Assembly: GCA_027532775.1 (NCBI GenBank)
Contig: JAPZTO010000001.1
Span: forward strand, 62,001 to 126,000
Source of the DNA: Beijerinckiaceae bacterium
GTDB taxonomy: Bacteria > Pseudomonadota > Alphaproteobacteria > Rhizobiales > Beijerinckiaceae
Length of the DNA stretch: 64,000 nt
Direction of reading: 5' to 3'
Shown here: positions 8,763-64,000 of the stretch, one piece after another
Numbering within the stretch: the stretch's first letter is position 1
Layout: every line of letters starts with the position of its first letter
Notes under the pieces: model-generated
What the model saw: the letters and a program-made list of their open reading frames with translations, nothing else
The model's database searches: none
Told to the model about the DNA's origin: nothing
Translations under genes and position numbers: made by a program

Positions 8763-8780
8763 CCAGGTGAGACCCAGCCC

Positions 8781-9647: not shown

Positions 9648-9784
9648 CAGGCCTCCTCGCCAGCAGGCCGCGCCGGGCCGGGCGTGCGGAAGCACGCGCG
9701 GGGGCGGGCCCACCGCGCGCATGCGGTTGGGCTTTCCCTGTCGCGCCGGCAAGCGGGCTCAGGGCGGGAAAGGGTTTACGCAGG

Positions 9785-9982: not shown

Positions 9983-10066
9983 GGCCAAAACTCCTTCGGA
10001 AGGGAAGCCGCACGCCGGCAGGCGGCGTCGAATCAACCCTTCCTTGAGGAAATTGCGGGCAATGTC

Positions 10067-10081
10067 TTAAGAGGTGCTTAA
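10067..10081. promoter_or_regulatory. CtrA-type full binding site
   Basis: The sequence TTAA-GAGGTGC-TTAA matches the CtrA consensus TTAA-N7-TTAA exactly. TTAA is rare in this GC-rich window, which makes a chance full match less likely. It lies downstream of the DUF1491 gene and upstream of the 65-residue ORF (start 9982), so it would act on the latter. Binding is inferred, not shown. Confidence 0.6.
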
Positions 10082-10114
10082 GGAGCGTGCCGAAACGGGC
10101 CGCTTCCTCAAGGC

Positions 10115-10468
10115 TCAGCCTTCAGGCTCGATCATGGGATCGAGGAAATGCCGGCCCTGGCGGTCCTCGATCTCGACGATCCAGCAATCGGGATCGAAGC
10201 GGATTTCCTTGTCCAGCCGGGCCTCGACGGCTGGCCGCTCGAGCACGGGTGCGGCATGAAGCCGGGTGAAGACCCGGTCTTCGGGCTTGCCCGCATAGCT
10301 CGACATCGGCGCGGGGCCATACAACGCTGCCGTGCCGTCGAGATGGTCGACCACCACGAAGATTGTGCCGGCCTCGGCACCGCCCCGGCGGCGCAGCGCC
10401 CCGAAGGCGCCCTCGATCGCGGTGCGGCGGAGATAGGCGGAGACGAAGAAGTCGCTCGTCAGCCGCAT
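10115..10468 (-). CDS. DUF1491 family protein
   Basis: A 117-residue protein beginning MRLTSDFFVSAYLRR, the hallmark opening of DUF1491, followed by GAEAGTIFVVVDHLDG, FTRLHAAP and the C-terminal CWIVEIEDRQGRHFLDP. The family is small, cytosolic and uncharacterised, found across Alphaproteobacteria. The start at 10468 sits one base after the stop of the peptidoglycan-binding protein gene, so the two are an operon with translational coupling. Confidence 0.85.
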   Translation of the reverse strand: MRLTSDFFVSAYLRRTAIEGAFGALRRRGGAEAGTIFVVVDHLDGTAALYGPAPMSSYAGKPEDRVFTRLHAAPVLERPAVEARLDKEIRFDPDCWIVEIEDRQGRHFLDPMIEPEG

Positions 10469-10469
10469 G

Positions 10470-11309: not shown

Positions 11310-11328
11310 TACCCCCTGTCGATTCCGT

Positions 11329-12969: not shown

Positions 12970-13032
12970 CGGCCCGTCACGTCCCGTTCTGTTTGGTCCT
13001 TTTCCCCACATCCGACCATGCGTCGGGCGATC

Positions 13033-13047
13033 TTAAACGGGTGCTAA
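13033..13047. promoter_or_regulatory. Near-perfect CtrA-type site
   Basis: TTAA-ACGGGTG-CTAA has one mismatch to TTAA-N7-TTAA. It lies 64-78 nt upstream of the histidine-kinase-like gene start (12969) on the minus strand, a sensible promoter position. Together with the perfect box at 10067 it suggests that this small cluster belongs to a CtrA regulon. Confidence 0.45.
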
Positions 13048-13262
13048 GATGCAGCGTCCCGGAGCCCCGGTTTCGGCCCCGGAGGTGCCGGGGCTCCGGC
13101 CTTTCCGCGACTATGGTGAACAACCTCTCTCCATCTACGCGCTGCCGGTCGCAAAGGCGTTATGGTTCCGGACAGAAGGCCGGATCGATAAAATTCGACG
13201 AAAATTGCCAACAGAATCGCGACCTCCCTGCTTTATGCCGGAGACAGGATGGGAGAAGCATC

Positions 13263-13625
13263 ATGTTCTGGCGTGCCACCTTGGCGATTGCGGCGCTCTA
13301 CTACGTGACGGTTCCGGCAGAGGACCGCCGGCAGACGGCATCGGAACTGCGCGCGGCAGCCGGGCAGCTGCCTGCCCGCGCCATCGACCTGTGCAGCGAG
13401 AAGCCGCTGCTCTGCACCGAGATTGCCCGGCAGGCCGGCACGGCGCTTGCCCCCGGGGCACTCGTCTCCGCGCCTCCCCTGCCTGCCGCGATGCCTCTGC
13501 CTCCAGCAAACCCGGCCGCCGGCCCCGAGCCGCAGGCGAAGGCCGCACCCGAGCGCCGGATCGTGGAGGGGGTTCCGCTGCCGCCGCGCCGGCCGGTGCC
13601 GCATCCGGCGCGAAAAGGGGCTTGA
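13263..13625 (+). CDS. Small secreted or anchored proline-rich protein
   Basis: A 120-residue ORF with an N-terminal hydrophobic segment (MFWRATLAIAALYYVTVP), a short region with two cysteines (LCSEKPLLC near residue 46), and a Pro/Ala-rich C-terminal half. GGGAGA lies just upstream of the ATG at 13263. Resembles small envelope proteins of Rhizobiales of unknown function. SufE starts 31 nt after its stop. Confidence 0.6.
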   Translation: MFWRATLAIAALYYVTVPAEDRRQTASELRAAAGQLPARAIDLCSEKPLLCTEIARQAGTALAPGALVSAPPLPAAMPLPPANPAAGPEPQAKAAPERRIVEGVPLPPRRPVPHPARKGA

Positions 13626-13656
13626 CCTTCCCGCCGCCACGCGACACGTGACCGGC

Positions 13657-14076
13657 ATGAATATCCCGCCCGCGCTCCAGACCATCCGCGACGATCTCGC
13701 CTTCCTCGACGATTGGGATGATCGCTACCGCTACCTGATCGATCTCGGGAAAACCCTGCCCGCCTTGCCGGCGGAGGCCTATTCCGACGCGTTCAAGGTG
13801 CCGGGCTGCGCGAGCCAGGTCTGGCTGATGATGGACCGTGACGCCGCAACAGGGCGCCTTGCCATCCGGGGCGACAGCGATGCGCTGATCGTGAAGGGGC
13901 TGGTTGCGCTCGTCATCGCGATGTTCTCGAACCGACTGCCGGACGAAATCACGGCGATGGATGCGCAGGCCTTCTTCGCCGCGATCGGGCTTCGCGAGCA
14001 CCTGACCTCGCAGCGCGCCAACGGGCTCGCCTCGATGGTGGCGCGGATCAAGGCCGAAGCCAGCCGCGCCACCTGA
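13657..14076 (+). CDS. sufE: SufE-family cysteine desulfuration protein
   Basis: A 139-residue SufE-like protein, the sulfur acceptor that takes persulfide from a SufS-type cysteine desulfurase for Fe-S cluster assembly. Family features: IRDDLAFLDDWDDRYRYLIDLG at the N terminus, the catalytic cysteine at residue 51 in VPGCASQVW, and GLVALVIAMFSN, then GLREHLTSQRANGL. Normal length. No suf genes adjoin it, so it is a stand-alone copy, common in Rhizobiales. The Shine-Dalgarno sequence is weak. It converges on the DUF6456 gene, 24 nt away. Confidence 0.92.
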   Translation: MNIPPALQTIRDDLAFLDDWDDRYRYLIDLGKTLPALPAEAYSDAFKVPGCASQVWLMMDRDAATGRLAIRGDSDALIVKGLVALVIAMFSNRLPDEITAMDAQAFFAAIGLREHLTSQRANGLASMVARIKAEASRAT

Positions 14077-49054: not shown

Positions 49055-49190
49055 GGCCCCCTCACCCGCCGACGCTCCGCGCCGTCGACCTCTCCCCGGC
49101 GGGCAGAGGTGGGAGGCTGGCTGGAGGGGCGTGGCGAAATTCAGGGATCCGGTTGCAGGGCGTGGTCCGCCTTCCCTCGCCTCGCCTCAC
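49055..49190. repeat. Mosaic palindromic intergenic repeat, locus 7
   Basis: Between the convergent epmB and HlyD-family genes. One module CCCCTCACCCGCCG - GACGC/GCGCC - GTCGACCTCTCCCC - GGCGGG - CAGAGG - GGCTGGCTGGA, then a decayed second module around CTTCCCTCGCC. Confidence 0.82.
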
Positions 49191-50521
49191 TCCTCGCGGA
49201 AGGCGCGGTGAAAGGCATCCGTCAGCGGCTTGGCGAAATAGGACAGGGCCGTGCGCTCGCCGGTTTCCACAAAGGCCTCGACCGGCATGCCCGGCGTGAG
49301 CACGAGCGGGCCGAGCCGGGCCTGGCTGCCGGGTTCAAGTTCTGCCCGCGCGACGAAATAGGTCATCCCGGTCTGCGGCTCGCGCGTGGCATCGGCGGCA
49401 ACGCGGGTGATCCGGCCCGGCAATTCGGGCGTCGTGCGCTGGTTGAAGGCCGAGAGGCGCAGCATGACGCGCTGCCCGAGGCGGATCTGGTCGATATCGA
49501 TCGGGCTCAGGCGCAGCTCGACAGCCAGCTTCTCGTTATCCGGCACGATGGCGAGCACGGTCTGGCCCGGGGCGATGACCCCGCCGATCGTATGGATGGC
49601 GAGTTCATGGACGAAGCCGGATTGCGGCGCGCGGATCTCGATCCGCGCCAGCACATCCTCGGCGGCGGCACGGCGCTCGACCAGCTGGGCGATGGCGCCC
49701 TCGACCTCGCGCAGTTCCTTCACGGCCTCGGTGCGCATCCGGTTGTCGAGCGAGAGGAGCTGGAGGTTGATCTCGGCGATCTGGCCGCGCGCCTTGGCCA
49801 TGGCGGCCATCAGCGAGCCAGCCTCGCCCTGCAGGCGCGCCGCCTCGCGCTGGAGCGCGGAGACCCGGTTGATCGGGATGAGGTTCTTCTCGAAGAGTTC
49901 GAGCACACCCTTGAGCTCGACGGCGATGAGGCGCGCCTCTTCCTTCTTGCCGGCGAGCTGGGCCTCGAGCCCCTCGATCTCGCGCTGGTACTGCCCGGCG
50001 CGTTCGCGCAGCTGGTCCGCCTGTCGGTCGCGCAGGGCGCGGTTTTCCGTCAGCAGGCGCTGCTCGCCCTCGGCCACAGCCGGCGCTTCAGGCGCCATGT
50101 CGCGGAAGCCGGCCGGCAGGATCAGGTCAGCGCGGTCATCGCGTTCGGCTTCCAGCCGGGCGCGGCGGCCGGTCTGCTGGACCAGTTGCGAGACGATCTG
50201 GGCGAGATTGGTCCGCGGGATCGTGTCATCGAGCCGGACGAGGATGTCTCCCGCCGCCACACGCTGGCCGTTGGTGACCGGGATGGCGCCGACAATACCG
50301 CCGGCGAGATGCTGGATCTTCTTGACCTCGCCCTCGACGACCACCATCGCCGGCGCGAGGACTGCACCCGAAAGCTGTGCCATGACGAGCCAGAGAACGA
50401 AGCCGCAGAAGCCGAGCCCGACCGTTGCCGCACCGATCCCGATATGCCGGGCCATGGCCGGGCGGGGCGGCAGCGCCTGCTGGGCCTGCTCGCGCGGGGA
50501 GAGCGGCGGGGCGGCGCTCAT
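49187..50521 (-). CDS. HlyD-family type I secretion periplasmic adaptor
   Basis: A 444-residue membrane fusion protein of the PrtE/HlyD type. One N-terminal membrane helix (about residues 28-48), the lipoyl half AMVVVEGEVKKIQHLAGGIVG, a long coiled-coil region (about residues 95-290), IRAPQSGFVHELAIHTIGGVI, and the C-terminal beta-barrel ending YFAKPLTDAFHRAFREE, the adaptor signature. It bridges the inner-membrane ABC exporter to an outer-membrane TolC-like channel, which is not encoded here. The start overlaps the ABC transporter stop by 4 nt (ATGA). Confidence 0.93.
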   Translation of the reverse strand: MSAAPPLSPREQAQQALPPRPAMARHIGIGAATVGLGFCGFVLWLVMAQLSGAVLAPAMVVVEGEVKKIQHLAGGIVGAIPVTNGQRVAAGDILVRLDDTIPRTNLAQIVSQLVQQTGRRARLEAERDDRADLILPAGFRDMAPEAPAVAEGEQRLLTENRALRDRQADQLRERAGQYQREIEGLEAQLAGKKEEARLIAVELKGVLELFEKNLIPINRVSALQREAARLQGEAGSLMAAMAKARGQIAEINLQLLSLDNRMRTEAVKELREVEGAIAQLVERRAAAEDVLARIEIRAPQSGFVHELAIHTIGGVIAPGQTVLAIVPDNEKLAVELRLSPIDIDQIRLGQRVMLRLSAFNQRTTPELPGRITRVAADATREPQTGMTYFVARAELEPGSQARLGPLVLTPGMPVEAFVETGERTALSYFAKPLTDAFHRAFREE

Positions 50522-52371
50522 CCTTCGGAATTCCCGCCGGTAGAGGTTTTCGGGCCGGGCCGGGGCGCGTCCGTCCGGGCGACGCCGCCCATGCGGCCGG
50601 TCAGCCTCATGCCGGTCCGGAAGGGGGCGGCGGGCGCATCCGGCGCGGCAACCGGGCGGATCGCAGCGGGCGCAGCCTGCGACCGGTTCATGATCTGCGA
50701 CAGGATCGCATCCCGCGGACCGACGGCCTTCACTTCGCCATCGACCACGACGGCCACGAGATTGACGGCTTCGAGAACACCCGGGCGATGCGAGACGATG
50801 ACGGCGATGCCGCCCCGCGCCCGGATGAGGCCGATGGCCTTGGTCAAGGCCTTCTCGCCTTCCTCGTCGAGATGGGCATTCGGCTCGTCCAGCACGACAA
50901 GGAACGGCTCGCCATAGAGGGCGCGCGCAAGGCCGATGCGCTGGCGCTGGCCGACGGACAGGGTGTGGCCGCCCTCCCCCAGCATCGTCGAATAGCCTTC
51001 CGGCAGGCGGAGGATCAGGGTGTGGACATCGGCTGCTTCCGCTGCGGCGACGATGGCGGCATGGTCGGCATCCGGGTCGAGCCGGGCAATGTTCTCGGCC
51101 ACCGTGCCTTCGAAAAGCTCGACATCCTGCGGCAGGTAGCCGATCAGCCGCGACCGGGCCGCATCCGACCATTGCTCCAGCGGCGCGCCGTCGATGCGGA
51201 CGGCACCGGCCAGCAGCGGCCACGCCCCCACCATCGCGCGGGCCAAGGTGGATTTGCCGGCGCCGCTCGGCCCCATCACCGCGAGGCCATCACCCGCCTT
51301 CAGGCTGAAGCTGGCCGGACGGAGGATCGGCTGGCGCTGGCCGGGCGCGGCCACGACGATGCCCTCGATATCCAGCGTCTGCCGCCGCTCCGGCAGGGCG
51401 ATCCGCTCCGGCTCGGCCGGCAGGAGGGAGAGGAGTTCCTCGAGGCGCCGGCGGGCCTGACGCGCCGCGACAAAGCCGCGCCAATGGCCGATGGCCGCTT
51501 CGACCGGTGCCAGCGCCCGCCCGGCCAGGATGGAGGCCGCGATGATTGCGCCCGGGCTCATCTGGTTGCCGAGGACGAGATAGGCGCCGAGGCCGAGGAT
51601 CGCGGATTGCAGGATGGTGCGGCAGATCCGGGACAGGGCGCCGAGCGTCGAGACCGTGTCGGAGAGGCGCTCGGACGCGGCGAAGAGACGGGTCGAGGCG
51701 GCGAAGAACCGCGCGGCGGCGCGATGGGCAAACCCCATGGCGGTGAGCATCTCGACATTGCGACGGGCCGATTCCGCCGCATGGGCACGGCGGGCCGCAG
51801 CCTGCGTGGCCTCCTGCGTGGGGCCGGCAAGGCGATGCTCGGTCAGCAGCGCGATCGCCACCAGCACGAGCATGCCGGCGGTGGCCATCACGCCGAGCCA
51901 GGGGTGGAGCAGGTAGATGACCAGCAGGTAGAGCGGCATCCAGGGCAGGTCGAAAAAGGCCATCGGCCCGGGGCCCGACATGAAGTTGCGCACCCCTTCC
52001 ATATCGCGGACGGGCTGGGTGGCCTCGACCGCGCTCCGCCCGGTCAGGGGGAGGCGCAGCAAGAGGTCATGGACAGGCTGGAGGAGATCACGTTCGAGGG
52101 CGCTTCCCACGCGCGACATCACCTTGGCGCGGACGATCTCCAGCAGGCCCTGCAATGCGAAGAGGCCGAGTGCGAGGAGCGAGATGGCCACCAGAGTCGG
52201 CACAGAGCGGCTGGCCAGCACACGGTCATAGACCTGCAGCATGTAGAGCGACCCGGTCAGGGCCAGCACATTCACCACGGCGGAAAACAGCCCGACCGAG
52301 GCCAGCGGCCCGCGCAGCCGGGCGAGGCTGTCGGTCAGGGGGGAAGCCGGCTTGCGACCGCGTGGCGCCAT
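50518..52371 (-). CDS. Type I secretion ABC transporter, PrtD-like permease/ATPase
   Basis: A 617-residue half-transporter. Six membrane helices up to about residue 310 are followed by an ATPase domain: Walker A GPSGAGKST with K373, signature LSVGQRQRIGLARAL, Walker B FLVVLDEPNAHLDEEG and an H-loop in IVSHRPGV. No C39 peptidase domain, so it belongs to the PrtD/HlyB-like group that exports RTX-type proteins with C-terminal signals. The HlyD adaptor is the next gene, coupled. A candidate RTX-like substrate starts at 63812. Confidence 0.94.
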   Translation of the reverse strand: MAPRGRKPASPLTDSLARLRGPLASVGLFSAVVNVLALTGSLYMLQVYDRVLASRSVPTLVAISLLALGLFALQGLLEIVRAKVMSRVGSALERDLLQPVHDLLLRLPLTGRSAVEATQPVRDMEGVRNFMSGPGPMAFFDLPWMPLYLLVIYLLHPWLGVMATAGMLVLVAIALLTEHRLAGPTQEATQAAARRAHAAESARRNVEMLTAMGFAHRAAARFFAASTRLFAASERLSDTVSTLGALSRICRTILQSAILGLGAYLVLGNQMSPGAIIAASILAGRALAPVEAAIGHWRGFVAARQARRRLEELLSLLPAEPERIALPERRQTLDIEGIVVAAPGQRQPILRPASFSLKAGDGLAVMGPSGAGKSTLARAMVGAWPLLAGAVRIDGAPLEQWSDAARSRLIGYLPQDVELFEGTVAENIARLDPDADHAAIVAAAEAADVHTLILRLPEGYSTMLGEGGHTLSVGQRQRIGLARALYGEPFLVVLDEPNAHLDEEGEKALTKAIGLIRARGGIAVIVSHRPGVLEAVNLVAVVVDGEVKAVGPRDAILSQIMNRSQAAPAAIRPVAAPDAPAAPFRTGMRLTGRMGGVARTDAPRPGPKTSTGGNSEG

Positions 52372-52516: not shown

Positions 52517-53467
52517 TCAATGGTTCCGGCCGCCACCGGCGAGGAAATCCGCATAGGCGATCCGCAGCCCCTCGCGAAGCGGCGTGCGGGCCTGCCAGCC
52601 CAGAGCCTTGATGCGCGAGACATCGAGCAGCTTGCGCGGCGTGCCATCCGGCCGGGACGTATCGAAGACCAGTTCGCCCGTGAAGCCGACGACGCCGGCA
52701 ATCTCGCGCGCGAGATCGGCGATCGTCAGGTCCTGGCCGGTGCCGACATTCATGAAATCCTCGGAGGAATGCCGTTCCAGCGCGAAAAGGGCAGCCTCGG
52801 CGAAATCATCGACATAGAGGAACTCTCGGCGCGGCGTGCCGGTGCCCCAGATCGCGACCTGGGGGGCGTTGGCGGCCTTGGCCTCGTGGAAACGGCGCAG
52901 AAGGGCAGCGATCACGTGGCTGTTCTCCGGGTGGTAATTGTCGCCCTTGCCATAGAGATTGGTCGGCATCAGCGAGATGTAGTCGGCGCCGCATTGCCGG
53001 CGATAGGCCTGGGTCAGCTTCATCCCGGCGATCTTGGCGATCGCATACCACTCGTTCGTGGGTTCGAGCGTGCCCGTCAGCAGCGCGGTTTCCGGAATCG
53101 GCTGCGGCGCCTCGCGCGGGTAGATGCAGGACGAACCGAGATAGAGCAGTTTCTGCACGCCGTTGCGCCAGGCGGCATCGATCACGTTGGCCGCGATCAT
53201 CATGTTCCGGTAGAGGAAATCCCGCGGGAAGCTGTTATTGGCATGGATGCCGCCCACCTTCGCTGCCGCGAGGATGATGACCTCGGGCCGATTGGCCGCG
53301 AGCCAGGCTTCCACCTCGGCCTGGCGCTCGAGATCCAGCCCTTCGCGGTCTGCGGTCAGCGGCTCGATGCCCCGCTCGCGGAGCGCGCGGACAATCGCGC
53401 TGCCGACCATGCCGCGATGGCCGGCCACGAAGATCCGGCGATCCTTCAGATCAAAACTGGCACTCAT
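52517..53467 (-). CDS. fcl: GDP-L-fucose synthase
   Basis: A 316-residue short-chain epimerase/reductase that converts GDP-4-keto-6-deoxymannose to GDP-L-fucose for surface polysaccharide. NADP site [24 protein letters not shown]-type motif ([13 protein letters not shown]), [13 protein letters not shown], active-site tyrosine-lysine in [11 protein letters not shown], and [23 protein letters not shown], hallmarks of Fcl/WcaG. GDP-mannose 4,6-dehydratase (gmd), which supplies its substrate, is not in the window. Divergent from the epimerase at 53628. Confidence 0.93.
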
Positions 53468-53627: not shown

Positions 53628-54647
53628 GTGATGAATGCCGGCAACGCCTCTTCCCCCTCCCCGCGCCGCCGTGTGCTGGTGACCGGCGTGGCCGGGTTCA
53701 TCGGCATGCACCAGACAAGGACCCTGCTCGATGCCGGATGCCAGGTGCTGGGCGTGGACAATCTCAACGCCTATTACGACCCCGCCATCAAGGAAGCCCG
53801 GCTGGAGACCCTGAAGGGGCGGAACGGCTTTTCCTTCGAGCGCATGGGCATCGAGGATGTGGCCGGCATCCGCAGGCTATTCGAGGAATTCCGGCCCGAT
53901 TCGGTGGTGCATCTCGCCGCGCAGGCCGGCGTGCGGCATTCACTCGACGCCCCGTTCGACTATACCCGCGCGAATATCGACGGGTTCCTTTCGCTGCTGG
54001 AAGCGGCGCGGCATGTGCCCGTCCGGCATTTCCTCTATGCCTCCTCCAGTTCGGTCTATGGCGCGAATACCAAGGTGCCGTTCAGCGAGGAGGATCCCGT
54101 TCTCCACCCGATCTCGCTGTATGCCGCCACCAAGCGCGCGAATGAACTGATGGCCGAGACCTATGCCCATCTCTTCGGCATTCCGCTGACAGGACTACGC
54201 TTCTTCACCGTCTATGGCCCCTGGGGCCGACCGGACATGGCGCTTTGGAAATTCACCGAAGCGATCCTCGCGGGGCGGCCGATCGATGTCTATGACGAAG
54301 CCAGCATGCAGCGGGATTTCACCTATATCGACGATATTGTTACGCCGATCCGGCTGTTGCTCGACAAACCGCCGGAGCGGGAGGGCGGGGCCAGCCCGCA
54401 CCGGATCCTGAATATCGGCAACCACCGGCCGGAGCGGCTGGCGGATTTCATCGCCGCCATCGAACAGGCCTGCGGCCGGAAGGCGATCCGCCGGGCCCTG
54501 CCGCGCCAGCCGGGCGACGTCACGGCCACCTATGCCGATGTCAGCCGCCTCCAGGCACTGACCGGGTTCGAGCCGGACACACCGATTGGCGCCGGCATCG
54601 CCCGCTTCGTCGAATGGTATCGACACTCGCCCTTCGCGCCCCGCTGA
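53628..54647 (+). CDS. NAD-dependent nucleotide-sugar epimerase, UDP-glucuronate 4-epimerase-like
   Basis: A 339-residue extended SDR enzyme. NAD site VTGVAGFIGMH, VDNLNAYYDPAIKEARL, ASSSSVYGANTKVPFSE, active-site YAATKRANE and RFFTVYGPWGRPDMALWKF, which is the pattern of UDP-glucuronate/galacturonate 4-epimerases. The product would be a sugar nucleotide for capsular or lipopolysaccharide synthesis. Start 53628 or 53631 (two ATG in a row). Last gene before the polyketide synthase on the same strand, 300 nt upstream. Confidence 0.86.
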   Translation: MMNAGNASSPSPRRRVLVTGVAGFIGMHQTRTLLDAGCQVLGVDNLNAYYDPAIKEARLETLKGRNGFSFERMGIEDVAGIRRLFEEFRPDSVVHLAAQAGVRHSLDAPFDYTRANIDGFLSLLEAARHVPVRHFLYASSSSVYGANTKVPFSEEDPVLHPISLYAATKRANELMAETYAHLFGIPLTGLRFFTVYGPWGRPDMALWKFTEAILAGRPIDVYDEASMQRDFTYIDDIVTPIRLLLDKPPEREGGASPHRILNIGNHRPERLADFIAAIEQACGRKAIRRALPRQPGDVTATYADVSRLQALTGFEPDTPIGAGIARFVEWYRHSPFAPR

Positions 54648-54947: not shown

Positions 54948-57900
54948 ATGACGTCACAGCGCAAATCCTCCCACTCCGCAATCATCGGCGCTGCCTGCCG
55001 CTTGCCCGGCGCGTCGTCGGTTGCCGAGTTCTGGTCGCTGCTGGTCGAGGGCCGCAATTCCGTGCGGCGCCAGCCCGACCATCGCTGGAGCGTCGAACGG
55101 TTCCTTCGCCCCGGCAATCCCGAGCCCGGATTCGCCTATACCTTTGCCGGCGGCTATCTCGATGATCCGCTGGGTTTCGACCCGGCGCCATTCGGCGTTT
55201 CGCCGCGCGAGGCGCAGCAGATGGACCCGCAGCAGCGCCTGCTGCTCGAAGTGGTCTGGGAAGCGCTCGAGGATGCCGGCATTCCCGCATCGAGCGTCGC
55301 GGGGACGCAGGTCGGCGTCTATGTCGGCGCGTCGATGGTGGATTACCAGGGCACGGCCTCGCTCGATCCGGCGGTGATGGAAAGCCACTTCATGACCGGC
55401 AATTCGCTGGCCGTGCTGTCGAACCGCATCTCCTACATCTATGATTTCAAGGGGCCGAGCTTCACGCTGGATTCGGCCTGCTCGTCCTCGTTCGTCGCGC
55501 TGAAGCAGGCGACCGACGCGCTCGAGGAAGGCAAGATCGACCTCGCCGTCGTCGCAGGCGTCAACATGCTGCTCTCGCCGGTGCCCTTCATCGGGTTCAG
55601 CCAGGCGCGCATGCTTTCGCCGACAGGCCTTTCCCGCCCCTTCTCCGCCAAGGCCGATGGCTATGTCCGGTCCGAGGGCGCGGTCGTCCTCGTGCTGCGC
55701 CGCGAGAAGGATGCGACGGCCAAGGGCGAGCGGATCCGCGGGTTCGTGGTCGGCGCCTCCGTCAATTCGGATGGCCGGACGACCGGCATCTCGCTGCCCT
55801 CGATCGAGGGCCAGCGCGACCTGATCGACCGCTTCTACGCCGATATCGGCGTTTCGCCGGACAAACTCGCCTTTGTCGAGGCGCATGGCACCGGGACCAA
55901 GGTGGGCGATCCGATCGAGGCGAATGCGATCGGCCAGTCGCTCGGGCAGAAGCGCAAGGCGCCGCTGCCGGTCGGGTCCGTCAAGTCGAATATCGGCCAT
56001 CTCGAGGCGGCGTCCGGGCTGGCCGGGCTGCTGAAATCGATCCTCGCGCTGGAACACCGCCTGCTGCCGCCTTCGCTCTTCCTCGAACAAACCAACGAGA
56101 TGATCGATTTCGAGGCGCTCAATCTCGTGCCGAATGCGGCTGCACGGCCGCTTTCACTGGAAAACGGCGCCGATTACGCCGCGATCTGCAATTACGGGTT
56201 TGGTGGCACCAACGCGCATGTGCTGGTCAAGGCCGCGCCGCCCGCCATCGCGGCAACCGGCGCGAGCCGGGCCACCCATCTCATGCTGACGGCCGCCGAT
56301 CGCGAGAGCCTCGCCCGGCAGGCGGAACGTGTTGCCGGGGCCCTTGAAGCCGGGCTCGATGCCAGGCTCGCGGCCGCGACGCTTGCCCATGGGCGGGACG
56401 CGCTGAAGACGCGGCTGGTCGTGCCGCTGGTCGAAGGCCAGGATGCAGCCGGCGCCTTGCGCCAGTTTGCCGAGGGCCAGGCGGATTCAGCCGGCCATGC
56501 CTCGGGTCAGGCGGCCTCCGCGGATGCGCCTGTCGTCTTCGTCTTCTCCGGCAATGGCAGCCAATATGCCGAGATGGGCCATGCCGCCTATTCCGGCAAT
56601 GCCCGGTTCCGTGCCGAGATCGCCGCGATTGACGCCCTGTTCCAGCCGCTTTCGGGCTGGTCGCTGACCGAAAAGCTGACCAACCCCATCCCGGCGGCGG
56701 AACTCGAGCAGACATCGATCGCCCAGCCGCTCATCTATGCGATCCAGTCCGCGCTGGCAGGCTGCCTCGGCGAAGCCGGCATCCGCCCGGCGGCCGTGCT
56801 CGGCCATTCGGTCGGCGAGGTTGCTGCGGCGGAAGCCAGCGGCGCACTCACCCGCGCCGAAGCGGTGCGGCTCATCTATCTGCGCTCGAAGCACCAGGAG
56901 AAGGTGCGCGGCCTCGGCCGGATGATGGTCGTGGCGGCGGAAGCGGCGCAGGTCGAGCGCCTGCTGCAGGCTTTCGGCGCCGAGGCGATCGAGATCGCCG
57001 CGTACAATAGCGGCACCTCCACCACGGTTTCCGGCCCGGCAGACCTGCTGAAGAGCTTCGCCAAGCATTGCCGTGCCGCCCGCGTGGCCACGGTGGCGCT
57101 GGATATCGATTATCCGTTCCATTCCTCGGTGCTGGAATCGATCGGCCCGGCCATGGTGGCCGATCTCGCCGGGCTGGCCCCGCGCGCAACCGAAATTCCC
57201 TTCTGCTCGACCGTCACCGGCGAGGTAAAGGCCGGCGAAACGCTCGACGCCGAGTATTGGTGGCAGAATATCCGCCGGCCCGTCCGCTTCATGCAGGCCC
57301 TGCTGGCCGCTGCACCGCACGATGGCCGGATCTATCTGGAGATCGGCCCCCGCGCCATCCTGACGGGTCCGATCGCGGAAACCCTGCGGGATGCCGGCCG
57401 AGCCGGCGAGACGTTGGCCAGCCTGTCGCAGAAGGACAAGCTCGACCCCGTCGCGCTCGTGATCGCCCGGCTGGTCGCCCATGGCGCGCACATCGACCGG
57501 GAGGCCCTGTTCGGCCCACGCCCGACGCGCATGGCGGAACTGCCCGGCTACGCATTCCAGCGGCAGGATTATCAGCTGCCGGGCACGTCGGAGCATGTGA
57601 ATGCCTTCGGCAAGCTCAGCTATTCGGATGCCCGGCATCCGCTGCTCGGCGCCCGCATGGCCGATGGCTCGCCGGAATGGCGCGCGCTGCTCGACCCGGC
57701 GATCCTGCCCTATCTCGATGATCACCGCGTCGATGGCGGGGTGATCGTCCCTGCGGCCGGGCTGATCGAGATGGCACTGGCGGCGGGGCGTGACCTGTTC
57801 GGCGAGCGCCCGCTGCAGATGGCCGAGTTCGACGTGCTCCGCGCCCTCGCGATCGCGCAGGACGAGATCCGCGAGGTCTCGACCCGTTATGCCGAGGCCG

Positions 57901-60900
57901 CAAACACGATCGAGGTCTGGAGCCGCAAGCGCTTCTCGGCACAGGAATGGGTGCTCCATGCCCGCGGTCGCATCGAGCCGCTCTCCACGCCGGTCGTGGC
58001 GCCACTGCCCGGCCCGGACCACGGCGAAGGCTATTTCCGGGACACGCCGGCCGAGGTCTATGCCGAGGCGACGCTGGCGGGACTCGATTACGGCCCGATG
58101 TTCCGGCTTGTCACCGCCTCCGAGCGGGACGACATCACCACCCATGCGCGGCTTCGCGTGCCCGACGAGGCCGGCCTCGGCGCCTTCATGGACCGGCATG
58201 TGTTAAACCCGGTCTCGCTGGATGCCTCGTTCCACGGCCTGTTCATCGCGCGGCCGCAGAAGGAGGGCGAGAAGAAGGCCCATCTTCCCGTCCGCTTCCG
58301 GGGGATCAAGGTCTGGCGCCATGGCGTGCCGATCCGCCAGTCCATCACCCGGCTCACCAACGAGACCGACCGGTTCAAGACCGTGGCGATCACGCTGATG
58401 GACGAGGCCGGCGAGGTTGTCGCCTTCGTCGAGGCAGCGGTGCTGCGCGCGCTCTATCTCGGCCAGGCGACGACTGCCGACCGCACCTTCCGGATCGAGG
58501 CGCTGCCGATCACCCTGCCCGCCGGTGCCTTGGCCCGTCTCGCCAAGGCCGACATGGCCTCGAACGACAATACCGATGACCGCGAGGTGCCGCCGGCCTG
58601 GCTCATCGCCCGGGCCTTCGCGGTCTCGCTTGCCCACCGCATCGCGATCGGGCTTGCGCCGGATGGCAAGCTCGATCCGGCCGGCCTCGCCGCCGGCGGC
58701 CATGTTGCCGAGGATGCGCTGCCGCTGCTCGAAGCCGCCCGCGTGATCCTCGAAGGCTTCGGGCTCGTGCAGGGCGGCGTACTGGTAGCGGAGAACCCGC
58801 TGCCGCCGGCCGAAGAGGTCCTGACCACGCTGGTTACGAATTTCGCCGATGCCAATCTCGAGATCCGCCTCGCGGCGCAGGCTTTGGCCCATGCCGAACG
58901 CCTGATCCGGCAGGGTGGCCGGCTTGCCGTGCCGCCCTCCGCGCGGGACCAGATCGAGACGTCCGGCCTGCTGGTCCATCCGGCGCTGGTTGCCCTCCGT
59001 GATGCGCTTGAGGCGATGGCCGGACAGGCTGGCCGGAAGCTGCGCGTGCTCGCGGTTGAACCGTGGAGCGCGGGCCTTCTGACGGCGGTAACGCCGCTGG
59101 TCCGGGCCGGCGTGATCGAAGTGACGCTCGTCGCCCAGAACCGCAAGGCAATCGACAATGCCCGCCTGATGGGCAAGGTCGATCCGGAGATCGAGTTCCT
59201 CAATCTCGAGGATGCGCTGCACCTGGCCTCGCCGGTCGGGTTTGACGTGCTGGCCGGCGTGGCCTCGGCCCCGCTGGGCGGCGAGGACGGCATTCCCGCT
59301 TCGCTGCGCGGCGTTTTGCGGCCGGATGCGACGGTGCTGGTGGCGCAGCCCGGTGCCGATGCGACGCTGGATTTCCTGCTCGGCCTCTGGGCCGGCTGGT
59401 TCGCGCCCGCCGGCAAGGGTGAGGCAGGCCTGCCGCGCACACCCTCGCCGGAGCGGACGCGCGAGGCGCTGGAGCGTTTCGGCGCGGTCACTCTGGCTAC
59501 GCGCCCGACAAGCGACGGGCTGGGCGGGCTGATTACCGGCCAGGTGCCGGCCTTGGCACGCGAAGCGTCCGCTACGGCCTATGCCGTGGTGGTTGCCGGG
59601 CTGACGGCCTTCGACAAGGCCCTTGCCCGCGGTGCCGATCTGATGCTCGCGGCGGATGGAACACTGGGAGAGCGCCTCGCACAACTGGCGCAGGAGAAGC
59701 GCCTCCCGCCGCATCTCGTCTATCCGGTCAGCCTTGACGGGGCCGATGCGGTGGAACGGGTGGCGACGCATCTCGAGGCGCTCAAGCGGATCGCCGAGGC
59801 GCTGGAGCCGCTCGATACGGGCATTCGCGTCACGATCTGCACGCAGGGCGCGCATGATGATGATGCCGTTCCCGCCGCGACGGCCAGCAGCCTCTGGGGC
59901 TTCCTGCGCGTCGCGATCAACGAATTCCCGACGGTCGACCTGCGGCTGGCCGATTTCGATCCGGCCCTGCCGGATGCCGGCGCGCCGATGGAGGCCCTGC
60001 TCGGCCTTTCCGGCGGCGAACTCGAGGTTGTGGTACGCGCGGACGGGCTCAAGGCCCTCCGGATGCGGCGGAACCTTTTCCCGCCGGCGCGCCTTGCTGA
60101 GAACGAGCGCAGCGTCCTGAAATTCGAGCAGGCCGGCCGCCTCGACAGCTTCACCTGGCTGCGCGAGACGCGGCAGGCGCCCGGCGCCGGCGAGATCGAG
60201 ATCGAGGTTGCGGCCGTCGGCCTCAACTTCCGCGACATTCTCGTCGGCCTCGGCATTCTCGACGATGACCTGCTCGGCGCCGGTCTCACGGCGGCCGCAC
60301 TCGGCTTCGAATGCTCCGGCATCGTGACCCGCATCGGCGCGGGTGTTGCCGATCTCCGCGTCGGCGACGCCGTGATGGGCTTTGCGGCGAATACCTTCGC
60401 CTCGCATCTCGTCTCGCCGGCCTGGCATTTCTTCAAGGTACCGGAAGGCGTGAGCCTCGAAGCGGCGGCGACCATCCCCGTCGCCTTCGCGACCGCTTGG
60501 TTCGCGCTCGTCAAGCGGGCGCAGATCGCCGCCGGGGATGATGTGCTCATCCATGGCGGGGCAGGCGGCGTCGGGCTGGCGGCGATCCAGTTCGCGAAGC
60601 AGGCCGGCAGCCGCGTGCTTGCGACAGCCAGTAGCGAGGAGCGCCGGGCCATCGCCCGCGCGATGGGGGCGGACCTTACCTTCGATTCCCGGCAGGAACG
60701 GTTCGCGGAAGTCATCCGCAACACGCTCGGCGGCGTCGACGTGGTTCTCAACTCGCTGGCCGGCCCGGCCATGGTCGCCAGCTTCCGGCTGGTCAAGCCA
60801 TTCGGCCGTTTCGTGGAGCTCGGCAAGCGCGATTACCTCGACAATACCCAGCTCGGCCTGCGCCCCTTCGTGCGGAATATCGCCTATTACGGGGTCGATC

Positions 60901-62342
60901 TCGACGAATTGCTGGCGCATGACCGGCCGCTGGTCGAGGCGATGATGAAGACGATCTCGGCGCAGTTCGCTTCCGGCGCGCTGAAGCCCCTGCCCTACCG
61001 GGTCTTCGAGGGCGAGGATGTCGGCACGGCCTTCCGGCTCATGCAGGCCTCCGAGCATGTCGGCAAGATCGTCGTCCGGCCCTCGAAACTGGCGAGCCGC
61101 TCGATCACCGGCCTTGCCTTCCGCGCCAAACCCGGCGCCTATCTCGTCGTCGGCGGAACCAGCGGCCTCGGCTTCGCCACCGCCCGCTGGCTGGCTGGCA
61201 AGGGGGCCGGCACGCTGGTGCTGGCCTCGCGGCGCGGCCGCGTCGAGGAGGGCCTCGAAAGCGAGGTCGAAGCGCTTCGCGCCCGCGGCGTGACGGTGGA
61301 CATCGTCGCGCTTGATGTCTCGGATCGAGAGGCGGTGGATGCCCTTGTCGAGCAGATCACCGAGCGCCACGGGCCACTCCGCGGCGTGATTCATGCCGCC
61401 GTCCTGCTGGATGACGGGATGATCAGCGGCCTGACTCCGGAACGCCTCAGGGCCGGGCTCAAGGTGAAGATCGACGGCGCGAGTCATCTCGACGCCGCAA
61501 CCGCCGGCCAGCCACTCGATTTCTTCGTGGTCTATTCCTCGGCGACGACGGTGATCGGCAGCCCCGGCCAGGGCGCCTATGTGGCCGCGAATGCGTGGCT
61601 CGAGGGCTTTGCCCGCGAGCGGCGCAAGCAGGGCAAGCCGGCTCTGGCCATCGGCTGGGGCGCGATTTCCGATGTCGGCATCATCGCGCGCGACAAGCAG
61701 CTTGGCCGCCGCCTGCGACGCACCACCGGCGTGGTCGGCATCTCCTCCGCCGAGAGCCTCGCGCATCTCGGACGGCTGCTGGTGCTCGGCAACGAGGTCG
61801 GGCCGATGCAATTCTACACGAATATCTCGCCCGGTGCGGCGGCGGAAAAGCTCCGGCTGATCAACAGCCCGGCCTTTGCCGGCCTCGGCCTCGCCCGGCG
61901 CGAGGAGGATGGCGAGCAGGAAGGCGATCTCGTCACCGCAATCGAAGGCAAGAGCCGCAGCGAGGCGATCACGATCATTGTCGGCGCGCTCAAGCGCGAG
62001 ATCTCGCATATCCTGCGGATGCCGGAAGAGCAGATCGATGTCAGCCGGCCGCTCGGCGAGCTTGGCCTCGATTCGCTGATGGCGCTGGAACTCCAGCTCT
62101 CGATCGAGCGGCTCTGCGGCACCGATGTGCCGCTGGTCGGCGCGGGTGATCGTCGCCTCGGTGATATCGCAGCGATGATCCATACCAGCCTCGGCGGTGG
62201 CGGGGGTGACGAGGAGGCCGTGGATCCGGGCGCGAATATCGCGCTGGCCATGTCGGGCCTGCATGGCGGCAACATTACCAGCGAGGAAGCGGAAGCCCTT
62301 TCGCAGAAACTGAAAATGGCGGGAGGCCGGCGCGGGCCATGA
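54948..62342 (+). CDS. Highly reducing single-module type I polyketide synthase
   Basis: A 2464-residue multidomain enzyme making a reduced polyketide on its carrier domain. Order: ketosynthase (about 6-430; C178 in DSACSSS, EAHGTGT, SNIGHLEA), acyltransferase (about 523-805; S621 in GHSVGE; YPFHSS, which points to malonyl-CoA), dehydratase (about 885-1165; H near 926 in DHRVDGG, then LDASFHG), a degenerate methyltransferase (about 1210-1560; no SAM motif), ketoreductase structural part (about 1560-1690), enoylreductase (about 1730-2040; HGGAGGVG), ketoreductase (about 2060-2235; GGTSGLG, LDD motif, active tyrosine near 2210) and acyl carrier domain (S2376 in LGLDSLMAL). No thioesterase. A TTG codon precedes the ATG at 54948. 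Overlaps the next gene by 4 nt. Product unknown; likely iterative. Confidence 0.93.
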   Translation: MTSQRKSSHSAIIGAACRLPGASSVAEFWSLLVEGRNSVRRQPDHRWSVERFLRPGNPEPGFAYTFAGGYLDDPLGFDPAPFGVSPREAQQMDPQQRLLLEVVWEALEDAGIPASSVAGTQVGVYVGASMVDYQGTASLDPAVMESHFMTGNSLAVLSNRISYIYDFKGPSFTLDSACSSSFVALKQATDALEEGKIDLAVVAGVNMLLSPVPFIGFSQARMLSPTGLSRPFSAKADGYVRSEGAVVLVLRREKDATAKGERIRGFVVGASVNSDGRTTGISLPSIEGQRDLIDRFYADIGVSPDKLAFVEAHGTGTKVGDPIEANAIGQSLGQKRKAPLPVGSVKSNIGHLEAASGLAGLLKSILALEHRLLPPSLFLEQTNEMIDFEALNLVPNAAARPLSLENGADYAAICNYGFGGTNAHVLVKAAPPAIAATGASRATHLMLTAADRESLARQAERVAGALEAGLDARLAAATLAHGRDALKTRLVVPLVEGQDAAGALRQFAEGQADSAGHASGQAASADAPVVFVFSGNGSQYAEMGHAAYSGNARFRAEIAAIDALFQPLSGWSLTEKLTNPIPAAELEQTSIAQPLIYAIQSALAGCLGEAGIRPAAVLGHSVGEVAAAEASGALTRAEAVRLIYLRSKHQEKVRGLGRMMVVAAEAAQVERLLQAFGAEAIEIAAYNSGTSTTVSGPADLLKSFAKHCRAARVATVALDIDYPFHSSVLESIGPAMVADLAGLAPRATEIPFCSTVTGEVKAGETLDAEYWWQNIRRPVRFMQALLAAAPHDGRIYLEIGPRAILTGPIAETLRDAGRAGETLASLSQKDKLDPVALVIARLVAHGAHIDREALFGPRPTRMAELPGYAFQRQDYQLPGTSEHVNAFGKLSYSDARHPLLGARMADGSPEWRALLDPAILPYLDDHRVDGGVIVPAAGLIEMALAAGRDLFGERPLQMAEFDVLRALAIAQDEIREVSTRYAEAANTIEVWSRKRFSAQEWVLHARGRIEPLSTPVVAPLPGPDHGEGYFRDTPAEVYAEATLAGLDYGPMFRLVTASERDDITTHARLRVPDEAGLGAFMDRHVLNPVSLDASFHGLFIARPQKEGEKKAHLPVRFRGIKVWRHGVPIRQSITRLTNETDRFKTVAITLMDEAGEVVAFVEAAVLRALYLGQATTADRTFRIEALPITLPAGALARLAKADMASNDNTDDREVPPAWLIARAFAVSLAHRIAIGLAPDGKLDPAGLAAGGHVAEDALPLLEAARVILEGFGLVQGGVLVAENPLPPAEEVLTTLVTNFADANLEIRLAAQALAHAERLIRQGGRLAVPPSARDQIETSGLLVHPALVALRDALEAMAGQAGRKLRVLAVEPWSAGLLTAVTPLVRAGVIEVTLVAQNRKAIDNARLMGKVDPEIEFLNLEDALHLASPVGFDVLAGVASAPLGGEDGIPASLRGVLRPDATVLVAQPGADATLDFLLGLWAGWFAPAGKGEAGLPRTPSPERTREALERFGAVTLATRPTSDGLGGLITGQVPALAREASATAYAVVVAGLTAFDKALARGADLMLAADGTLGERLAQLAQEKRLPPHLVYPVSLDGADAVERVATHLEALKRIAEALEPLDTGIRVTICTQGAHDDDAVPAATASSLWGFLRVAINEFPTVDLRLADFDPALPDAGAPMEALLGLSGGELEVVVRADGLKALRMRRNLFPPARLAENERSVLKFEQAGRLDSFTWLRETRQAPGAGEIEIEVAAVGLNFRDILVGLGILDDDLLGAGLTAAALGFECSGIVTRIGAGVADLRVGDAVMGFAANTFASHLVSPAWHFFKVPEGVSLEAAATIPVAFATAWFALVKRAQIAAGDDVLIHGGAGGVGLAAIQFAKQAGSRVLATASSEERRAIARAMGADLTFDSRQERFAEVIRNTLGGVDVVLNSLAGPAMVASFRLVKPFGRFVELGKRDYLDNTQLGLRPFVRNIAYYGVDLDELLAHDRPLVEAMMKTISAQFASGALKPLPYRVFEGEDVGTAFRLMQASEHVGKIVVRPSKLASRSITGLAFRAKPGAYLVVGGTSGLGFATARWLAGKGAGTLVLASRRGRVEEGLESEVEALRARGVTVDIVALDVSDREAVDALVEQITERHGPLRGVIHAAVLLDDGMISGLTPERLRAGLKVKIDGASHLDAATAGQPLDFFVVYSSATTVIGSPGQGAYVAANAWLEGFARERRKQGKPALAIGWGAISDVGIIARDKQLGRRLRRTTGVVGISSAESLAHLGRLLVLGNEVGPMQFYTNISPGAAAEKLRLINSPAFAGLGLARREEDGEQEGDLVTAIEGKSRSEAITIIVGALKREISHILRMPEEQIDVSRPLGELGLDSLMALELQLSIERLCGTDVPLVGAGDRRLGDIAAMIHTSLGGGGGDEEAVDPGANIALAMSGLHGGNITSEEAEALSQKLKMAGGRRGP

Positions 62343-63688
62343 GCGGAGCGGCTGGAAAAGACGTCAACGCGCTCTTGTCGATGATGCGCAAGGCGCCCTC
62401 TGCCACGACGGCCCGTCCGGACCTGCCGGAGCGCAATTACGACACGCGCTTCGACTCGCTGCCGCAATACCAGCAGATCACCTTCCAGCGCGAATTCGCC
62501 AAATTCGCGCGGCTGGAAGTGCCCTATTACCGGCAGCATGACGTGCGCGCCGGCGCCGAGACCATCCTCGAGGGCCGCAAGCTCACCAATTTCGCCTCCT
62601 ACGACTATCTCGGCCTCAACGGCCATCCCGAGATTGTCGCGGCATCGGAAGAGGCGACGCGCGAATTCGGCACCTCGGTTTCCGCCAGCCGGATCAGCGC
62701 GGGCGAGCGGTCGATCCATCGCCATCTCGAGCGCCTTCTCGCCGAGAATTATGGCACCGAGGATTCCGTGGTGTTCAATTCCGGCCATGCCGGCGGCGTC
62801 TCGACGATTGCCAGCCTGATGGGCCCGAAGGACATCATCTTCCACGACGTACTCAGCCATAACTGCATCGTCGTCGGCGCGCAGCTTTCCGGCGCGACGC
62901 GGCGGAACTTCGCCCATAACGATCTCGATGCGCTGGAGGCCTTGCTGGAAAGCGAGCGGCATCGTTTCGAGCGGGCGATGATCATCACCGAGGGCTTGTT
63001 CTCGATGGATGGCGACGGGCCGGATCTTGCCCGCCTTGTCGCCCTCAAGAAGAAATTCGGCTGCTGGCTGATGATGGACGATGCCCATGCGCTCGGCGTG
63101 CTGGGCGCACGCGGCCGGGGCATTTTCGAGCATCAGAATGTCGATCCGGCCGGGGTGGATCTCTGGTTCGGCACGCTGTCGAAGACGCTGGTCGGCTGCG
63201 GCGGCTATGTCGCCGGCAATGCGATCGTCATCGACCTGCTGAAATGCCACGCACCCGGCTTCGTCTATTCTGTCGGCATGCCGGCCTCGAATGCCGCCGC
63301 CTCGGCCAAGGCACTGGAGATCATGAACCGCGAACCGGAGCGGGTGGCGAAGCTGCAGGCCAACAGCCAGCTCTTCCTGCGCCTCGCCAAGGCCAGGGGC
63401 CTCGATACTGGCGATGCCTGGGGCTATGCCGTGATTCCGGTGGTCGTGGGCGAGACGGCGCGGACGCTGGTCCTGTCAGAACAGCTGAAGCGCAAGGGCT
63501 ACAATGCCTTCCCGATCCTGCCGCCCGGCGTGCCGGAAAAGTCCTCGCGGCTGCGCTTCTTCATCAACGCCACCCATAGCGAGGCGCAGATTGGCGGGGT
63601 GGTCGAGGCCGTGGCCACCACTTTGGACGAGATCCGCGATGTCTCGGTGAAGGCCATCCTGTCGGGGCAGGTTTCGGTTCCCGGCTGA
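62339..63688 (+). CDS. PLP-dependent alpha-oxoamine synthase (polyketide off-loading)
   Basis: A 449-residue class II aminotransferase-fold enzyme of the 8-amino-7-oxononanoate/serine palmitoyltransferase/KBL family. Seen: FASYDYLGLNGHPEI, SVSASRISAGERSIHRHLE, FNSGHAGGVSTI, MDDAHALGVLGARGRG, and the PLP lysine K282 in GTLSKTLVGCGGYVAG. It has an N-terminal extension of about 80 residues absent from BioF, perhaps a docking segment for the synthase. The ATGA overlap with the polyketide synthase implies a joint function: decarboxylative condensation of an amino acid with the ACP-bound acyl chain, giving a 2-amino-3-ketone. The amino acid cannot be told. CAI-1 synthase and Fum8-type enzymes are relatives. 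Confidence 0.88.
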   Translation: MSGAAGKDVNALLSMMRKAPSATTARPDLPERNYDTRFDSLPQYQQITFQREFAKFARLEVPYYRQHDVRAGAETILEGRKLTNFASYDYLGLNGHPEIVAASEEATREFGTSVSASRISAGERSIHRHLERLLAENYGTEDSVVFNSGHAGGVSTIASLMGPKDIIFHDVLSHNCIVVGAQLSGATRRNFAHNDLDALEALLESERHRFERAMIITEGLFSMDGDGPDLARLVALKKKFGCWLMMDDAHALGVLGARGRGIFEHQNVDPAGVDLWFGTLSKTLVGCGGYVAGNAIVIDLLKCHAPGFVYSVGMPASNAAASAKALEIMNREPERVAKLQANSQLFLRLAKARGLDTGDAWGYAVIPVVVGETARTLVLSEQLKRKGYNAFPILPPGVPEKSSRLRFFINATHSEAQIGGVVEAVATTLDEIRDVSVKAILSGQVSVPG

Positions 63689-63811: not shown

Positions 63812-64000
63812 ATGTGTTGGGTTTGCGGTCAGCGTGAAAGCAGCGGCTTCGTTTCGGATGTGCCGGTCTCCGAGGCCGGCAGCGGAGTTTATACTGCTGA
63901 TTCAAGCCTGCCCGTCTACTCGATCGCGCAGATCTCCAACCAGTTGCTCAACGGCTACTGGCAGGACCAGGGCGGCTCGGCCTTCCGCTGGGCGCCCGGC
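63812..64000 (+). CDS. Partial ORF, N terminus of an RTX/serralysin-type exoprotein
   Basis: The first 63 codons of an ORF that runs off the right edge, beginning MCWVCGQRESSGFVSDVPVS. It has no Sec signal peptide. The segment VYSIAQISNQLLNGYWQDQG resembles the N termini of alphaproteobacterial M10 (serralysin-like) metalloproteases and other RTX proteins, where the QISNQL.xGYW motif precedes the catalytic domain. Such proteins leave the cell by type I secretion; an ABC/HlyD pair lies 12 kb upstream. Only the N terminus is visible, so neither the zinc site nor the RTX repeats can be checked. Confidence 0.5.
   Translation, partial: MCWVCGQRESSGFVSDVPVSEAGSGVYTADSSLPVYSIAQISNQLLNGYWQDQGGSAFRWAPG

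Follow-up and report, generated by a model that had tools for sequence, protein, structure and literature searches.

What do a reducing polyketide synthase (PKS) gene and an α-oxoamine synthase (AOS) gene make when they overlap by a few nucleotides in the genome of a Beijerinckiaceae bacterium, and what is the product for? The pair lies in a stretch of 64,000 nucleotides (contig JAPZTO010000001.1, positions 62,001 to 126,000, forward strand; hereafter the window). At a probability of roughly 0.55, it makes a very-long-chain sphingoid base by which an exported capsule is primed or held in the membrane, and is the lipid core of a locus of the rkp-1/wcb/sga type. Two CHARACTERISED relatives of the window pair, rkp-1 of Sinorhizobium meliloti and SgaAB of Pseudomonas fluorescens MYb115, were compared with it; the pair is a relative of this characterised kind and not a first. 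An earlier note, made from the letters of the DNA, knew of no counterpart characterised in Hyphomicrobiales; S. meliloti rkp-1 (Hyphomicrobiales) is such a pair and is needed for capsule export (PMC3557214, PMC4881576).

The two synthases and the reductase

The PKS frame opens at ATG 54948 (or at the in-frame TTG 54945) and encodes a single, intact module; Pfam matches: ketosynthase (KS) 8.4e-81, acyltransferase (AT) 2.7e-64, dehydratase (DH, two models), enoylreductase (ER), ketoreductase (KR) 3.5e-60, acyl carrier protein (ACP) 1.5e-8; neither a thioesterase nor a methyltransferase family was among the 17 Pfam families listed at E ≤ 0.01. Catalytic residues were found in place: KS C178/H313/H351; AT S621/H725; DH H926/D1092; KR S2198/Y2211/N2215; ACP S2376; all 11 were identical in 60/60 homologous PKS frames from AOS loci (alignment). 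The complete KS-AT-DH-ER-KR-ACP module without thioesterase, as described in the earlier note, was thus borne out. The methyltransferase that the note had entered in brackets was not: there is no Pfam match, and the glycine-rich S-adenosylmethionine motif is not intact in the window PKS or in 13 relatives inspected in the alignment; an active enzyme was rejected, and the region looks like a relic. The AT motifs YPFH and GHSVG presumably indicate malonyl units. A chance origin is excluded by the open 2,464-aa frame and its near full-length homologues; identity to the RkpA-type PKS of S. meliloti was 36.8% over window residues 12-2453. The genome gave 5 ketoacyl-synthase matches, and the window PKS is the only one in a frame of type I size (2467 aa); the other four lie in frames of 403-476 aa.

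The junction of the two genes reads ATGA, the AOS start (62339) overlapping the PKS stop (62342) by 4 nt, in agreement with the earlier note. A scan for promoters and terminators gave 1 promoter-like site, on the other strand (1.0 expected), and 2 terminator-like sites (5.5 expected).

The lysine that binds pyridoxal phosphate (PLP) was found in GTLSKT and was invariant in the window AOS and 4 other aligned proteins, as the earlier note had led one to expect. The extra N-terminal segment of that note exists as well; its proposed role in docking was rejected, since the first ~45 residues differ widely in length among the 5 aligned proteins. The closest PDB matches were serine palmitoyltransferases (SPTs; 1.7e-62). 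NCBIfam cut-offs (in brackets, after the score in bits) were not reached for BioF, TIGR00858, 356.4 (426.45); glycine C-acetyltransferase (KBL), NF005394, 268.3 (460); 5-aminolevulinate synthase (ALAS), TIGR01821, 204.2 (338.55); or the SPT models NF047599, NF047600 and NF047603, 256.8, 283.7 and 181.4 (500, 640 and 670).

The tree of 140 AOS proteins (FastTree, one run, midpoint-rooted; built without 2 short fragments and a single duplicate of the window AOS) placed the window AOS in a group of 105 (support 0.87). Its other members include every one of the 80 named relatives, 19 AOS proteins of related genomes and the 5 of the plasmid collection, that of S. meliloti among them; 5 more proteins join this group first (0.998), and 6 canonical SPTs together with 2 unlabelled proteins join at the following node (0.994). 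The clade thus holds the protein at the RkpG position of S. meliloti and the SgaB-type proteins of Pseudomonas (L049/L050/L042), and the labelled BioF and ALAS proteins lie outside the AOS/SPT grouping. KBL was not among the labelled proteins and is compared by its NCBIfam score. A primary-metabolism AOS (BioF, KBL, ALAS) was rejected on the scores and, for BioF and ALAS, on the tree; the separation from BioF and KBL on which the earlier note had made its proposal depend was found.

The window genome gave 3 matches to the AOS family; the other two (L046, L047) are 5-aminolevulinate synthases that pass the TIGR01821 cut-off, and none of the three reaches that of BioF. A genome of the same genus (G001) has a second, more divergent AOS copy (C9:15312-16601, L030; 60% identical, one TAG inside the match). 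An LpxC-family deacetylase gene (L041:12997-13923) was seen between the PKS and AOS genes on plasmid p2 of Caballeronia insecticola.

PKS and AOS are encoded as one chain in two loci, L040 (2532 aa) and L111 (2652 aa), and an AMP-binding (fatty-acyl-AMP-ligase-like) domain, an ACP and an AOS form one chain in L106:7802-11275 and L120:3863-7402 (Pfam domains determined for these two). These fused chains show the AOS type linked to a carrier protein more than once, as would fit a direct transfer of the chain from the ACP to the AOS without thioesterase; the fusions with an AMP-binding domain read as a possible PKS-free acyl-chain supply for an AOS of the same clade. The latter type occurs in planctomycete and Desulfobulbaceae genomes; frames of 1152-1204 aa are also present in L105, L108, L113, L117 and L122.

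The locus further contains a short-chain dehydrogenase/reductase (SDR), the top PDB match of which was the 3-ketodihydrosphingosine reductase (KDSR) TSC10 (1.3e-26; next match 4.4e-22). With the TSC10 region as query, this SDR came first among 30 own-genome SDR loci tested (41 matches had been found), at 94.7 bits, the runner-up reaching 54.4; RkpH, a Shinella SDR and two SDRs of related genomes gave 65-76 bits, above every other own-genome SDR tested. The stretch ENRTKP is common to the SDR of the locus and TSC10. By similarity the protein is a probable KDSR-type reductase, and with it in the locus the amino ketone released by the AOS is predicted to be reduced to the amino alcohol.

Capsule genes around the pair

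The end of the window (contig 126000) falls within the locus, and capsule genes continue within 24 kb past it (Table 1); relatives of 5 of the 6 products of the rkpA, G, H, I, J, U set were found within ~33 kb.

Table 1: Features of the locus (window positions unless marked contig; strand as given in the analysis).
Feature	Position	Strand	Remarks
ORF labelled fcl (GDP-L-fucose synthase)	52517..53467	-	label from the earlier note; only the open reading frame (ORF) confirmed here
NAD-dependent nucleotide-sugar epimerase	53628..54647	+	PF01370; below every NCBIfam cut-off among 25 families listed
RkpA/SgaA-type reducing type I PKS, probably iterative	54948..62342	+	2464 aa; KS-AT-DH-(pseudo-methyltransferase region)-ER-KR-ACP, no thioesterase
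RkpG/SgaB-type AOS, SPT-like, PLP-dependent	62339..63688	+	449 aa
M10/RTX/DUF4214 protein	63812..64000, running on past the window (whole gene: contig 125812-127911)	+	immediately follows the AOS gene
Wzz/KpsE-like polysaccharide co-polymerase (PCP)	contig 128073-129275		Pfam match under the curated cut-off
KpsM-like permease	contig 129272-130105
Second PCP	contig from 130110
ABC ATPase, KpsT-like	contig 131351-132097
GDP-mannose-dehydratase-type gene (GDP_Man_Dehyd, GMD-like)	contig 132170-133255
Epimerase	contig 133278-134246
Methyltransferases and glycosyltransferases	downstream of the epimerase at contig 134246
RkpJ-like Capsule_synth	contig 144051-145457	opposite	PF05159 2.2e-71; 41% identical to RkpJ
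HerA/DUF87-like ATPase	contig 145480-147180 (L007:14480-16180)	-	between the RkpJ-like and RkpH-like genes
RkpH-like SDR	contig 147259-148080	opposite	39% identical to RkpH over 261 aligned residues, E 2.8e-48
RkpU-like Poly_export	contig 148085-149281	opposite	PF02563 2.1e-16; 35% identical to RkpU

Among 299 genomes from the phylum, PF05159 (Capsule_synth) was found in 14/15 genomes with this AOS type (a partial match only, 1.3e-17, in one of the 14, G423) and in 54/284 others (p 4e-9; the genomes lack independence, a single genus supplying 5 of the 15 with the AOS); counted by genus, in 10/10 AOS genera against 43/170 others. In no fewer than 8 of the 14, AOS and PF05159 share a contig and are at most 20 kb apart. 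The AOS class was set at >600 bits (15 genomes; the score below them was 457), and the 13 genomes that reached 300-460 bits were counted as without; at most 5 candidates were scored per genome, and the AOS and PF05159 searches were treated as one sample, its size and the listed genome ids agreeing. For 61 near relatives the figures were 12/22 with an AOS match (1e-60) and 6/39 without (p 0.002), an association weaker than in the phylum sample and of the same direction. For the window's own genus they were 9/12 and 1/5 (p 0.06), where two of the PF05159 matches are weak.

Related AOS loci (20 loci; 45-98% AOS identity; up to 20 kb a side, limited by contig ends) gave the following profile counts: PCP 9, KPSM 9, SDR 7, POL 6, KPS 4, LTA (PF00884) 1. 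Ten control loci, taken around other AOS-family genes in genomes of the same set, gave 0 for each of the six; one control match to the SDR profile lay in a frame of >600 aa, and such frames were dropped in all locus sets. The ABC ATPase model was unspecific (13/20 related and 6/10 control loci).

A further set of 85 AOS loci consisted of 5 plasmid records and 80 named loci, the latter being the best 80 of 587 by similarity to a Pseudomonas AOS and thus not random; the stretches extended at most 10 kb to either side of the AOS (14 kb in the plasmid records), many being ended by contig ends. By tblastn a PKS was present together with the AOS in 68/85, so that the joint occurrence of the two synthases, which the earlier note had made a point of, was found, and any of KPS/POL/PCP/KPSM/LTA in 56/85. 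Profiles gave LTA 32, SDR 30, KPS 21, PCP 21, KPSM 20 and POL 19; any of KPS/POL/PCP/KPSM, 37.

As to the remaining features of Table 1, the epimerase upstream of the PKS probably helps to provide a sugar precursor for the polysaccharide. The M10/RTX/DUF4214 protein is probably no part of the lipid pathway and could be the substrate of ORFs at 49187-52371 (-) that resemble, as read from their translation, an ABC exporter and the membrane-fusion protein of a type I secretion system. The HerA-like gene was considered as the missing head-group enzyme and rejected: its PDB matches were HerA-type ATPases, and among the related genomes with a homologue (23/61) there are 16 that gave no AOS match. 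In G050 a 44% identical copy lies ~1 kb after the AOS; its link to the AOS may be due to chance.

Proposed pathway and its alternatives

The following course is proposed. The PKS would iterate on malonyl units to give a saturated very long acyl chain bound to the ACP of its module. Condensation with an amino acid (L-serine being the likeliest) would be the task of the AOS, with loss of CO2 and release of 3-ketosphinganine, and no thioesterase would be needed because this condensation releases the chain. The KDSR-like reductase, 22 kb further on in the locus, would then give sphinganine. Chain growth, condensation and reduction are proposed by homology to characterised enzymes; serine, chain length and sphinganine are predicted by analogy with the characterised relatives. 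From the context of the genes, sphinganine, with or without a head group, may serve as anchor or primer; the RkpJ/KpsS-like enzyme and glycosyltransferases would begin capsule synthesis on it, and KpsM/KpsT/PCP/Poly_export proteins would carry the capsule to the surface. The sphinganine-like amino ketones put forward in the earlier note are supported as to chemistry by homology, namely by the position of the AOS in a clade with RkpG/SgaB-type proteins next to SPTs and by the sphinganines that SgaAB makes (PMC12134224).

Several points weigh against the capsule-anchor reading. TSC10 was not among the best 60 of 249 PDB matches of RkpH, nor among the 8 PDB matches listed for the SDR of the Pseudomonas plasmid or the 23 listed for a profile of 10 SDRs; the SgaC-position SDRs of Pseudomonas L042 and L049 gave 27 and 22 bits with TSC10, under several unrelated SDRs. 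PF00884 (RkpI/LtaS-like) had 0 matches in the window genome and was present in 1/20 related AOS loci within the stretch examined; from its absence in the genome it follows that the head group, if any, would come from another enzyme, or that the sugar would stand directly on the base. The capsule anchor of S. meliloti is said, in the title of Fraysse 2005, to be a phospholipid. PF05159 is missing in 10/22 related AOS genomes (G001, G006, G016, G018, G019, G023, G025, G032, G033, G050), among which G025, G032 and G033 have AOS matches of ≤47% identity only and G001 has two AOS copies, some near-relative genomes being fragmented; and 48/85 AOS loci are without any of KPS/POL/PCP/KPSM in the stretch examined, in part from short stretches. 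Use as a capsule anchor is also not required by the chemistry, free sphinganines being detected in P. fluorescens (PMC12134224).

The last three points would agree with a base that stays free, either in the membrane or secreted, in the manner of P. fluorescens MYb115, where free sphinganines and probable phosphoglycerol sphinganines were detected as SgaAB products (PMC12134224), and with capsule genes that merely neighbour another pathway. This explanation is unlikely, though the likeliest of the alternatives: the sga-type Pseudomonas loci L049 and L042 themselves carry Capsule_synth genes, the genome-level association stands at 14/15 against 54/284, and rkp-1 mutants are deficient in capsular polysaccharide (KPS) according to a review (PMC4881576). 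Transfer of the PKS chain by the AOS-family protein to a glycerol-phosphate or sugar acceptor, to give an acyl-glycerophospholipid anchor and no amino lipid, is less probable still. It would suit the phospholipid of the Fraysse 2005 title and the acyltransferase reading of RkpG in older work. The assignment of rkpA to biosynthesis and of rkpGHIJ to modification and transport of a lipophilic molecule in a genome paper (PMC3557214) would suit it too; the PLP lysine with its surrounding motif is, however, intact, the AOS is on the SPT side of the tree, the relative SgaB uses L-serine and hardly alanine or glycine (PMC12134224), and the KDSR-like reductase of the locus would be left without a role.

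A fumonisin-like amino ketone or alcohol, released as a diffusible secondary metabolite, was the frame favoured in the earlier note. The enzyme logic is indeed that of the fungal PKS and AOS (Fum1/Fum8). The reductase, moreover, is compared with FUM13 in PMC12134224. Such a product is nevertheless very improbable: no P450 or other fumonisin-like tailoring family was matched among the 20 downstream ORFs scanned, the recognisable ones being capsule, export and sugar genes, and since the window ends inside a capsule locus a capsule lipid is likelier than a free metabolite of this kind. Sphingoid chemistry with alanine or glycine, leading to a 1-deoxy base, was held the least likely; the window AOS is just 47% identical to the AOS of the Pseudomonas plasmid, so that its specificity may differ, whereas SgaB is virtually exclusive for serine (PMC12134224).

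Comparison with known systems

The S. meliloti record (L038) has the PKS at 6364-13872 and the AOS from 13869, followed in a row by an SDR, a PF00884 ORF and a capsule protein; a polysaccharide export protein lies upstream. The record itself names none of these genes, and the names rkpA, G, H, I, J and U were assigned from gene order. The ORF at the place of rkpI, missing from the incomplete gene table of the collection, encodes a PF00884 protein (3.7e-25) resembling lipoteichoic acid synthase. As in the window, a single-module PKS gene is directly followed by the AOS gene with a 4-nt overlap (13869-13872), and RkpH-, RkpJ- and RkpU-like proteins (39, 41 and 35% identity) occur in the window locus. 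Unlike rkp-1, the window genome has no PF00884 (RkpI-type) protein, and its H, J and U genes lie on the opposite strand ~20 kb off, beyond export and sugar genes, with the HerA-like gene between H and J. The rkp-1 region is described as serving KPS export via a specific lipid carrier (PMC4881576). In the available text of PMC4881576 and PMC3557214 its product is named only as "specific lipid carrier" or "lipophilic molecule", the structure not being stated; the primary papers of 1993-2009 stand outside this statement.

In P. fluorescens MYb115 the PKS and AOS of SgaAB are required for C24, C26 and C28 sphinganines, with further products at +154 Da that are most likely phosphoglycerol sphingolipids; SgaB is an SPT, and the SDR SgaC was proposed as the KDS reductase (PMC12134224). 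The same source counted 6,101 clusters homologous to sga and predicted sphingolipids in many bacteria; in its main text, as available, rkp, capsul- and polysaccharide have 0 occurrences. L049, L050 and L042 were used in place of the MYb115 sequence. L049 (P. putida) was taken as an sga locus because its PKS start matches the published sgaA primer at 22/22; its AOS is in the window clade, and it also has Capsule_synth (PF05159-like) frames, PhyH-, GNAT- and PF00884-like genes and an SDR. Its gene order is that annotated on the Pseudomonas plasmid pL21564-1: PKS and AOS come first, and the opposite strand then carries PhyH, Capsule_synth, GNAT, PF00884 and SDR, followed by further capsule genes and by Kdo genes. 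On the plasmid the SDR stands in seventh place, as it probably does in MYb115, where gene order was taken from the spacing of locus tags (RS19805 to RS19775, six tags, as in L042). The PF00884 gene, phosphoglycerol-transferase-like by its family, would explain the products at +154 Da. With the window the sga system has in common a single-module PKS adjoining an SPT-active AOS (SgaB) and an SDR further on; the best stretch of the PKS was 37.9% identical (window residues 6-1178, L049). It differs in the PF00884, GNAT and PhyH genes of its Pseudomonas loci and in its plasmid SDR (L042), which is without the ENRTKP-type stretch common to the window SDR and TSC10.

The wcbT gene presumably encodes the AOS partner of the wcbR PKS. 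The wcb locus of Burkholderia, known here from text, resembles the window locus in a type I PKS (wcbR) with capsule biosynthesis and export genes, and is described as orthologous to rkp (PMC3908369); the swf-type sponge PKS was rejected as a relative, its authors setting it apart from rkp/wcb, with different partner genes (PMC3908369). Canonical bacterial SPTs form a neighbouring clade of the same fold family as the window AOS, which differs from them in that a dedicated PKS supplies its chain in place of general fatty acid synthesis, and in scoring under all three NCBIfam SPT cut-offs. In fungi the chain of a highly reducing PKS, Fum1, is released by the oxoamine synthase Fum8; the organisms are of a different kingdom, and the likeness is one of enzyme logic, not drawn from sequence comparison. 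Fum1/Fum8 are not known to be linked to a capsule.

The window pair exposes a probable common chemistry of two systems studied separately and makes the question of the rkp-1 lipid testable. We tentatively suggest, at somewhat less than even odds, that rkp-1, wcb and sga are one system: PKS, AOS and reductase would make a very-long-chain sphinganine, an RkpI-type PF00884 phosphoglycerol transferase would convert it to phosphoglycerol-sphinganine, and KpsS/KpsC-like enzymes would start the capsule there, the window locus being a variant without the PF00884 step. Phosphoglycerol-sphinganine would be a single-chain look-alike of lyso-phosphatidylglycerol. The S. meliloti anchor of Fraysse 2005 is reportedly a phosphoglycerol with hydroxy-octacosanoic (C28) acid; calculated masses are 595.458 for C28 phosphoglycerol-sphinganine and 594.426 for hydroxy-C28 acyl phosphoglycerol (difference 1.03), and the "phospholipid" would be the former. 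This would identify the rkp-1 product and make the KPS anchor of S. meliloti a sphingolipid one mass unit from the reported phospholipid. A literature search, most subscription journals lying outside its coverage, found no publication that links rkp/wcb capsule loci to sga sphinganine chemistry. Joining rkp-1 and sga gives a concrete anchor structure for a capsule family important in nodulation, and suggests that the lipid anchoring such capsules is a sphingolipid, now open to direct search.

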